64,000 nucleotides of DNA, from the NCBI GenBank assembly GCA_025056865.1, contig JANWVO010000037.1:1-64000 (forward strand). The letters are read 5' to 3'. The translations under genes and the position numbers were made by a program. Source of the stretch: Bryobacteraceae bacterium (GTDB lineage Bacteria; Acidobacteriota; Terriglobia; Bryobacterales; Bryobacteraceae). Under the pieces are notes generated by a model. That model searched no databases. It was not told the DNA's origin and saw nothing but the letters and a program-made list of their open reading frames with translations. This document shows, in pieces, positions 13,939 to 17,692 of the stretch; positions within the stretch are counted from its first letter, which is position 1, and the number at the start of each line of letters is the position of its first letter.

Positions 13939-15474
13939 ATGCAGCGCGCCGAATACGAATCCTGGAAGCCGGTGGACGTCGCCCGCCTGCTGGCGCTGGT
14001 GGAGTCCGAGCGGCGCTATTTCCAGGAGCTGCTGGCGAAGCTCCCCGTGGCGGTGGCGGTGGTGAGCGCCGCGGGCGAGCTGCGCGCAGCCAACCGCGCT
14101 TTTCGGGACACCTTCGGGCTGGCGGCGGAAGACGTGGCGCGCACCAGCGTCACCGGATTGTTTGCCGAGGCTCCGGTGGCCGACTGGGTGCGGGAGGTGG
14201 CCGAGACTGGCGCTTCGCTGGGCGAGTGCGAGGTGCTCACCGGCGAAGGCGAGTCCGCGCGGCACTTCCACCTGAGGATGGACCCGGCGCCGGAGTGGAC
14301 GCACGGGGAGCAGCGGGAAGTGCTGCTGACGGTGCTCGAAGCGGCGGGGGAAGCGGAAGGGGAGGCCGAGGAACAGGAATCCGTTCCGGAGCCCGGAGAG
14401 AAGCCCCAGCCCTCTCGGCCGGCTCCGGACCCGGCGCAGCAGGTGGAGCGGGCCAAGCGGGCCGCGCTCGAGCGGCTGGCGGCGCGCGTGGCGCATGTCG
14501 CCAACAACCTGCTCATGATCATCGGCGGCTACGGAGAAGAGATCCTCGAAAGCCTTCCCGAGGGCGACGTGCGGCGCGCCGGCATGGCGGAGATCCTGCG
14601 CGCGGCGGAACGGCTGGGCCGGCTGACCCGCGACCTGAATGCGCTCACGGCGCCGCGGGAGTACGAAGCAGCGTCCGTGCCGCTGGAGGCATGGATGCGC
14701 GAGGCGGCGGCGCGGCTCGAGGAATTCCGTGTCGTTGCCGAACCGCCGGCGCCGGGATTGTGCGCGCAGGCTTCGCCGGAGCTGCTCGAGGAGATCGTGA
14801 TCGAAGCAGCGCGGTATCTGCGGCCGATGCTTGGCGAAACGGGACGGCTGCGGCTGGCGGCGCTCGCTTTGGACTCTGAACGCGTGCAACTGCGGCTCGA
14901 ATGGCCCGGCGCGCAGATCCGCGAAGAAGCGCGGGAGCGGTTCTTCGAACCGTTCGCGGGGGAGAAGGCTGGCACGGATCCGCCGCTGGGCCTGGCGGGG
15001 CTCGTGAAGAGCTGGGAGAAACTGGGCGGGTCGATGCGGCTGGAGGGCGATGCGCTGGTCATCGAATGCCCGCGGGCGCCGGATGCGGCGGCGGAGGAAG
15101 AGGCGGTGCTGCTGGTAGAAGACGAGCCGGGCATCCGCAGCCTGGTGGCGCGGGCGCTGGAGCGCGCCGGTTACGCGGTGGTGCAGGCGGGTTCGGCCCA
15201 GGAAGCGCTGGAGCTCTGGCAGGATCGCCGCCATGCGCCTGCGGTCCTGGTCACTGATCTGACCATGCCCGGGATTTCCGGCAAGGAGCTGGCCGAGCGG
15301 ATGCGCATGCGTTTCCCCGAGCTGCGTGTGCTGTTCGTTTCCGGCTACGCAAGCGAAGAGGATCTCCCGGGAAGGGCAGACGGCGCCGGGCAGGATCAGA
15401 AAACGCGGTTCCTTCACAAGCCATTCACGACGCAGCGGCTGCTGGAGCTCATCAGGCAGCTCGACGCGCGTTGA
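13939..15474 (+). CDS. PAS/histidine kinase/receiver hybrid, with degenerate ATPase region
   Basis: 511 residues, no membrane segment, so cytoplasmic. Order: PAS domain (about 27-125, PVAVAVVSAAGELRAANRAF); Pro/Glu-rich linker; HisKA-like helix with His186 in ARVAHVANNLLMIIGGYG (compare GGIAHDFNNLL of hybrid kinases); ATPase-like region; receiver with VLLVEDEPG, phospho-acceptor Asp440 in VTDLTMPG and Lys in LHKPF. The ATPase part keeps the FFEPFAGEKAG-PPLGLAGL segment (F/G2 boxes), but the expected N-box Asn (NLVxNAxDA) is missing (IVIEAARYLRP) and no DxGxG is seen. It may be a poor or inactive kinase whose receiver is driven by another protein. It is monocistronic. Confidence 0.8.
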   Translation: MQRAEYESWKPVDVARLLALVESERRYFQELLAKLPVAVAVVSAAGELRAANRAFRDTFGLAAEDVARTSVTGLFAEAPVADWVREVAETGASLGECEVLTGEGESARHFHLRMDPAPEWTHGEQREVLLTVLEAAGEAEGEAEEQESVPEPGEKPQPSRPAPDPAQQVERAKRAALERLAARVAHVANNLLMIIGGYGEEILESLPEGDVRRAGMAEILRAAERLGRLTRDLNALTAPREYEAASVPLEAWMREAAARLEEFRVVAEPPAPGLCAQASPELLEEIVIEAARYLRPMLGETGRLRLAALALDSERVQLRLEWPGAQIREEARERFFEPFAGEKAGTDPPLGLAGLVKSWEKLGGSMRLEGDALVIECPRAPDAAAEEEAVLLVEDEPGIRSLVARALERAGYAVVQAGSAQEALELWQDRRHAPAVLVTDLTMPGISGKELAERMRMRFPELRVLFVSGYASEEDLPGRADGAGQDQKTRFLHKPFTTQRLLELIRQLDAR

Positions 15475-15595: not shown

Positions 15596-16245
15596 TCAGT
15601 TGTTCCTGCAACACCGACAGTTGTCCGTGTTTGCATTGCGGCAGGAGTACCAGCCGGTAGAGCAGCTTGCCGGGCAACCGACGCTGCCAACGCTGCAACT
15701 GGCGGCACACTCGCCTCCCGAAGTGCAGGACATCCCGCCGCAGCACTCGGCGGGTAGATTCAGCTTCGTTCCGGTCCGTCCCGACTCAGGCGCACACGCA
15801 ATGGGGCTGCACAGGCCGAAAGACCGCAGGTTCGCCAGTTGTCTTGCCGAAAGAGGAAAGGACTGGCCGCACCCGGCGATCCGCACGACTTGCCAGTTTC
15901 CTGGTGAGAGCTTTCCAGGCGATGCGGCCACAGGAAGATTCGGGGACCTCGCCATCCGTTTCGTTCCGTCCTCGCCAGCCAAGGCCACCACGCCCCTGCC
16001 CAGGTAGAACGTGCATTTCTTTTCCCATCCAGCAGGAACTTCCCTGTCCCTGTGTATTGCAACACCAGTACAAGCGGCTCCCGTCGGTCCATGGGATGCA
16101 CCAGAATGAGCGTTCCGATCTGATCTGCCACCGTGAGAATCCCGATCTGCCCCCGAAAGCCCTTCCCGTCCGCGGCATCCGGGACCTGCGCGCGAAGCGG
16201 AGCCATCCGGACAAGACAACACATCACAAGGTTTGGTCTTCTCAT
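15596..16245 (-). pseudogene. Secreted cysteine-rich protein interrupted by a one-base deletion
   Basis: The start at 16245 has a good Shine-Dalgarno (AAGGGG, 8 bases upstream) and encodes a signal-like N-terminus (MRRPNLVMCCLVRMAPLRAQ). The first frame reads sensibly (GQIGILTVADQIGTLILVHP) up to FLLDGK near 16024, then turns Arg-rich. From the same point another frame reads KKCTFYLGRGVVALAGEDG and continues to the stop at 15596. One extra A in the AAAA run at 16020-16023 joins the two halves into 216 codons ending with that stop. The last 53 residues hold 11 cysteines (including AECCGGMSC and CRCCRNN), suggesting a disulfide-rich tail. Family not recognised. The break could be a mutation, a sequencing error or a site of slippage. 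Confidence 0.6.
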
Positions 16246-16804
16246 CAGGTTGCCCCTTGTGCCGGATTTCCGGCAGCGTTCCGATTGCCCGTGTTTGCAT
16301 CCCGGTCATGACTCCACCCGACAATTTCAGGATTTCCCTGCCCGGAATTCTTTACTTTGCTTCGCCTGCTCCGGGTGCCACACTGAGGTGCTCTTCCCTT
16401 CACGGATTCCGATCAGCACGGCGCTGGCCCGGCGTGGCAAAGAGGCTTCGCCGGGGCCAGGCAGGCCCGGCCATCACGCCGCCGGCGAACACGGACCCGT
16501 GGTGCATTTTTGCGGCGACTGGGTGGCGGCCACAGCTCTGCCGCAGCCGGCTGCGGTCACAACGAACGGCGCGGGGCGTCTGTCGGCGCGCGTTCTTCGT
16601 TACCTCACGAAGAAGACTGCGGAAGGCCCGGCCGGGTGCGAGAAGCGGGAGGTTCCCAACGCCCCGGATGCGCCGGGTCGAACTCCGGGACCTTGCGTCG
16701 CGGGCCATTCCGGTCTCCTTCCGGACAAAGTTCTTCACAGAACGGAACAGCCGGCGCGGCGCACCGCAGGGAGCAGGGCCGATGTGGCAGGAGATCCCTG
16801 GCGA
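16246..16804 (-). other. 559-bp stretch with at most one doubtful small ORF
   Basis: No convincing gene. On the minus strand an ATG at 16708 has a strong Shine-Dalgarno (AAGGAG, 16715-16720, six bases away) and opens a 102-codon Arg-rich frame to 16400. Its third-position GC looks lower than in the neighbours. A second minus frame over 16605-16700 reads KVPEFDPAHPGRWEPP, which looks more protein-like. Together these suggest the remnant of a frameshifted gene, but no family is recognised. Confidence 0.3.
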
Positions 16805-17692
16805 TCACGCTCCGAGCTGCGATAGAAACTCCACAAACCGCCGCGCGCACCGGTCGAGGTTTTCGACGGATCCGCCGCCGCGCAGCGGGCTGCACATTTC
16901 GTAGGCGACGGGGCCGCGGTAGCCTCCCTCGTACAGCGCGGTGAGAAAGGCGCGGTAGTTGATGATCCCCTCGCCCATCGGGACGGCGATGGTTGCGGGT
17001 GTCAGCGGCTCGAAGTTGACCTGCGCGGGCTGGTAACGGAAGCGGGGCCGCAACTGATAATCCGCCGCGGTCGTGTGAACGGTGTAAGGGGCCATGACGC
17101 GGGCGGCAGTTTCGATGTTGTCGCCCTGGAGAGCAGGCGTCCAGGCGTCGAAGCAGGCCCTGCAATGTGGATGGTTCACGGCATCCAGCAGGTCGCGCAG
17201 GGAGAGGTAGTGCGAGGCGCAGTCGTGGTGGTTCTGCACGCCGAGGACGACGTCGTAGCGGGCGGCGCGGCCGGCGGCTTCGCGCAGAATCTCCACCAGC
17301 CGGTGCGGCGGGAAGAGCGGATCTTCGTACGCGGTGAAGATGCGCACTACGGAAGCTCCGAGGTCCGCGGCGCGGCGGCACAGCGCCTCGATGTGGGCGA
17401 GCTGCATCTCCACGAGCGGGATGTCCGGACGGTCCGCGCCGGCCGAGAAGTTGTTGTAGCCCGCCAGGACGGCGCAGCGCAGGCCCAGAGACTCCATGCG
17501 CTCGCGCAGCCGCAGGCACTCCTCGCGGCCGTAGTCGAGCACGGAGAGGTGCGGCCGTTTCGCCATCAGCATCACTGCGCGGAAGCCGAGTTCCGCGGCC
17601 TTCCGAAGGAACTCATCGAGGGTGAGGCGCGCCTGGCCGGGCCAGACGCCCGCATAGGAGACGGAGTGAAGAACGGGTTCGAACAGCGACAT
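16805..17692 (-). CDS. Sugar phosphate isomerase/epimerase-like TIM barrel
   Basis: 295 residues of the xylose isomerase-like/AP endonuclease family 2 fold. Members are metal-dependent isomerases or epimerases acting on sugars such as inositol derivatives and hydroxypyruvate; the substrate cannot be assigned. Visible landmarks include the repeated strand pattern FRAVMLMAKRPHLSV, a metal-site region VLGVQNHHDCASHY, CFDAWTPALQG and a C-terminal VAYEMCSPL with Glu. There is no signal peptide. The start at 17692 has GGGAG upstream. It is divergent from the YihY gene with 29 bases between the start codons. Confidence 0.8.
   Translation of the reverse strand: MSLFEPVLHSVSYAGVWPGQARLTLDEFLRKAAELGFRAVMLMAKRPHLSVLDYGREECLRLRERMESLGLRCAVLAGYNNFSAGADRPDIPLVEMQLAHIEALCRRAADLGASVVRIFTAYEDPLFPPHRLVEILREAAGRAARYDVVLGVQNHHDCASHYLSLRDLLDAVNHPHCRACFDAWTPALQGDNIETAARVMAPYTVHTTAADYQLRPRFRYQPAQVNFEPLTPATIAVPMGEGIINYRAFLTALYEGGYRGPVAYEMCSPLRGGGSVENLDRCARRFVEFLSQLGA

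Follow-up and report, generated by a model that had tools for sequence, protein, structure and literature searches.

Positions 15596–16245 of the window, the whole stretch of 64,000 nt analyzed from a Bryobacteraceae bacterium, carry two overlapping open reading frames on the minus strand. The question was whether these encode two proteins, one protein read across a shift of frame, or a single gene that has been broken.

Two frames on the minus strand

The starting frame ran from the ATG at 16245 to a stop at 15760 (161 codons), and a second minus-strand frame ended at 15596 with the C-terminal residues ...NCRCCRNN. Joining them reproduced the product of 216 residues reported in the first-pass annotation, with 11 Cys within the last 53. 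The features of the locus were as follows.

15596..16245, minus strand: probable pseudogene, frameshifted, for an exported Cys-tail protein; 216 aa when joined
16016..16245, minus strand: 5' part in the starting frame, with a weakened putative signal peptide and the first half of the domain; matches residues 1–78 (G004 match)
16013..16023, minus strand: region of the frame break, with a one-base gap between 16015 and 16014 according to the relatives (alignment)
15596..16014, minus strand: 3' part in the second frame, with the remaining domain, the Cys tail and the stop; matches residues 75–216 (G004 match)
15599..15757, minus strand: last 53 codons with 11 Cys, nine of the ten family tail Cys plus two extra (comparison with intact relatives)
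16253..16258, minus strand: possible Shine-Dalgarno sequence AAGGGG, 7 nt before the ATG at 16245 (read from the sequence)
13939..15474, plus strand: flanking PAS / histidine kinase / receiver gene (context), adjoining the locus in 5/5 genomes of the genus
16805..17692, minus strand: flanking gene of the xylose-isomerase-like TIM-barrel type, second conserved neighbor (context)

The AAGGGG at 16253–16258 was a plausible match to the Shine-Dalgarno sequence proposed before the start. The signal-like start stood in part. The N-terminus was hydrophobic, but it was weakened by an Arg within the hydrophobic stretch (LVMCCLVRMAPL, compared with LLCCALWMMPLV in the related genome G004; signal peptides were judged by eye only).

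Inserting one base anywhere within the first 486 positions opened the joined frame. The two frames stay open throughout their overlap, so the window alone fixed neither the position of the break nor the kinship of the two halves.

Intact relatives and the position of the break

A sister species of the same genus (G004, a genome in one contig) contained a single uninterrupted ORF that was 60% identical to the joined product over residues 7–216. This one ORF matched both halves in two different frames of the window, at 62% and 45% identity. It occupied the corresponding locus, flanked as in the window by the histidine kinase gene and the TIM-barrel gene. Full-length single ORFs were also present in G009 (JACADU010000046.1, a Bryobacteraceae MAG), G232, G234 and G181, and, at a greater distance within the same class, in G539, G533 and G324.

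Both halves were therefore found in one ORF in G004 and in seven more distant Acidobacteriota genomes. This showed that the joining of the two halves was not due to chance, as the first-pass annotation had proposed from the frames; the opposite outcome of the search of Acidobacteriota genomes with the joined protein, relatives in which the halves are never one protein, did not occur. The window copy was homologous to both the domain and the tail of this family. It did not hold the domain and a ten-Cys tail in one open frame, and it was classed as a broken member.

The break was placed by a DNA alignment of the window with G004, G001 (another genome of the genus) and G009. A gap appeared between 16015 and 16014, where the window reads AAAT-GCACG compared with AACGGGCACG and AAATGGCACG in G004 and G001. 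It fell just after the codons GAT GGG AAA AGA AAT, where the relatives have the residues D W K/S G x G T. The AAAA run at 16020–16023, in which the missing A had originally been placed, was aligned without a gap and was not shared by the relatives. That placement was not upheld, as the relatives put the gap at 16014/16015, downstream of the run. One base is missing near 16014 in this assembly, its exact position being inferred from the alignment.

The AAAA run near the frame boundary spoke for a reading in which programmed ribosomal frameshifting, or slippage of the polymerase within the A-rich stretch, links the two frames. The slippage suggested for GGGAAAAGAAA was not supported, however: the run consists of only four A, it is missing from the intact relatives, and the gap aligns downstream of it. 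No X_XXY_YYZ heptamer, and hence no slippery site, was present in the zero-frame codons GAT GGG AAA AGA AAT. In the test for a programmed −1 frameshift, neither the frame change nor the site was conserved, and G004, G009, G181, G232 and G234 encode the protein in a single frame without the A run. We regarded a recoded gene as extremely improbable.

Loss of the base would cause translation from the ATG at 16245 to leave the frame after about 77 residues. Past the break, the ribosome would add about 84 out-of-frame residues and reach the stop at 15760, giving a product with no Cys tail. That this 161-residue truncated product, or one made from the tail frame, still serves on its own was very unlikely. 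Both ORFs are open, and tail-less forms exist, as G192 has the domain without the Cys tail. On the other hand, the residues after the break matched the frame of none of the relatives, and otherwise invariant positions were changed on both sides of the break.

Probable decay of the window copy and instability of the locus

To estimate the state of the window copy, we used 28 columns that do not vary among four more distant homologues. The window differed at 11 of these and G004 at 3. Changes unique to one copy numbered 8 in the window and none in either G004 or G001 (window 8/28 vs G004 0/28; Fisher p 0.004). Among the window-only changes were one tail Cys, the G of GIARYG, an F and a P, together with the W and the G next to the break. 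Positions that are invariant elsewhere were altered in the window copy on both sides of the break.

Codon changes specific to the window were 13 nonsynonymous to 9 synonymous, compared with 55:302 over seven neighboring genes (p 9e-6; the TrmFO row was left out because its extraction was mis-framed). The difference from G004's own ratio of 6:10 was not significant (p 0.32), and the gene family is fast-evolving in any case. The dN/dS between the window and G004 was 0.38, which indicated purifying selection over most of their shared history. By dS, the window copy was closer to G004 than to G001, and the neighboring genes differed from this pattern. The history of the gene may differ from the species tree.

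A second broken copy was found in G001. There the domain was conserved, a frame change preceded the tail, a TGA lay within the tail, and tail Cys were lost. The defects in the window and in G001 differed, and two species of the genus therefore carry differently broken copies.

These results bear on the alternative that the organism itself carries an intact gene and that an error of sequencing or assembly produced the frameshift. The one-base gap was the sole break, and the dN/dS of 0.38 would also suit an intact gene. Against an error stood the separately broken copy in G001 and the eight changes at sites invariant elsewhere, of which two adjoin the break. Other frame breaks were also few, with one further candidate in about 66 orthologue comparisons, a background drawn from few genes, some of them counted against two references. 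We considered an error unlikely.

We interpreted 15596–16245 as a frameshifted, decaying pseudogene of an exported Cys-tail protein, with a probability of roughly 0.83. The losses at invariant sites and the separately broken G001 copy both supported the recent pseudogene offered in the first-pass annotation as one of its readings. The product of the window copy would be non-functional, and constraint would have been relaxed in the window's lineage.

The locus as a whole is unstable: the gene was intact in G004, differently broken in G001, and absent from G002 and G003. In G002, both flanking genes were present about 165 bp apart with no copy between them. In G003, both flanks were likewise present without the gene, and the gap held genes for two other proteins that look exported, one of 261 residues and a Cys-rich one of 137; both of these lie beside the intact gene in G004. 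The gene for the 261/276-residue exported protein was intact in G004 and G003 and broken in G001. Neither this gene nor that for the 137-residue protein was detected in the window's genome. The locus is one at which exported-protein genes have been gained and lost within a single genus.

Several rearrangements were seen around these genes. Co-directional exported-looking genes, one of them very Cys-rich, were present at L137:2810-4943 (G004) and L047:3102-4313 (G003), and the combinations of such genes between the kinase and isomerase genes varied within the genus. Comparison of window:16845-23366 with G001:C1:1525605-1532146 revealed a local inversion in G001. One end of it was about 200 bp upstream of G001's broken Cys-tail gene, and the other adjoined G001's broken neighboring exported-protein gene.

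The window gene is most likely an ordinary pseudogene, from a protein family that is uncatalogued, and not a recoded gene. The stretch at 15596–16245 should be annotated as one pseudogene, rather than as two proteins or a recoded gene.

The Cys-tail family and its tail module

Members of the family have a hydrophobic, signal-peptide-like N-terminus (by eye), a domain of about 130 residues and a C-terminal Cys tail. The domain contains motifs like VEG..G.I, W.G.GR and GIARYG..PL; it also has G, Q, G, P and GI positions that do not vary. The tail module had exactly ten Cys in all eight intact members, two of which carry a further Cys within an extension at the C-terminus.

The count of 11 Cys in the window tail was correct, but the module was an altered one. 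Nine of the ten module Cys were kept, one was replaced by Arg, and two were additional. With ten Cys in all the intact relatives, we interpreted the eleven in the window as a decayed ten-Cys module. The even and fixed number fits about five disulfides that would form outside the cytoplasm, and the intact protein is presumably exported.

The family was sparse, being found in 8/257 genomes of the order and in 1/200 in another family. Because the gene is rare, patchy and repeatedly lost, the intact protein is most likely a dispensable accessory exported protein with a disulfide-bonded tail.

As first reported, the family was not recognizable: no match above threshold was found in Pfam-A, NCBIfam, PHROGs or PDB sequences. 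Searches of plasmids (with the DNA and the tail protein) and of viral contigs gave no relatives, and a literature search gave nothing relevant. AlphaFold2 modeling of the G009 protein together with the window's pieces reached a pLDDT of 34, too poor for a fold search. Weak matches in G011, G044 and G059 were rejected, as the translated loci showed no matching exported protein. A functional link to the export (MacB/ABC) genes beside the gene in G009, G234 and G181 was dropped because the neighbors varied among relatives. The abundance of MacB-like sequences in the genomes examined further weakened this link.

In genus g83, the gene was found at different sites in two relatives. Each time, the 3' end of another gene lay on one side of it and a partial copy of that end on the other (gene names by eye). 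In G232 (L133:4241-6244) it lay behind an exonuclease VII large-subunit-like gene, with a duplicate of 431 bp (88% identity). In G234 (L132:4544-6005) it lay behind a MacB-like permease gene, with a duplicate of 252 bp (82%). This second site was empty in G230 and G237, with a single copy of the 3' end. At the first site, G236 had another gene in its place, and after it came a short sequence similar to that site's 3' end. The permease-adjacent copy in G234 was 88% identical to that of G230 and the distal copy 83%, a difference to be expected of a distal copy that is a non-coding remnant. Such flanking repeats were absent around the gene in G004, G001 and the window.

The identical 119-bp ends of the G009 contig (JACADU010000046.1, k119; L021:1-119 and L021:4343-4461) suggest that its assembly path of 4342 bp is circular or tandem.

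Among the matches listed, the tail alone recurred on exported-looking Acidobacteriota proteins. It was near the C-terminus of otherwise unrelated proteins at L127:2-289, L128:1468-2160 and L129:1169-1933, and the members tested gave no match to Pfam or NCBIfam models. A tentative proposal, to which we gave somewhat less than an even chance, is that the intact family is undescribed and sporadically transferred, that the ten-Cys module is an uncatalogued disulfide domain of different secreted Acidobacteriota proteins, and that in one genus the gene was inserted together with a 250–430 bp duplicate of the neighbor's 3' end. The locus brings to light an exported family with a Cys tail as well as the tail module, neither of which is named in current libraries.

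The three carriers of the tail alone share the pattern SGG.GAS.C ... C.V.C..G[YF][YF].CCN at or near the C-terminus with the Cys-tail proteins; they differ in that the tail is fused to unrelated N-terminal parts. The closest likeness was to the uncatalogued family itself (G004, G009, G181, G232, G234, G539, G533 and G324), whose order of parts the window shares: a signal-peptide-like start, then the domain bearing a motif like GIARYG, then the C-terminal Cys tail. The window and G004 were 60% identical, and the other members were 31–42% identical to G009. Unlike these members, the window copy is frameshifted, has changes at 8 invariant sites (one of them a tail Cys), carries 11 rather than ten tail Cys, and begins with a weakened putative signal peptide.
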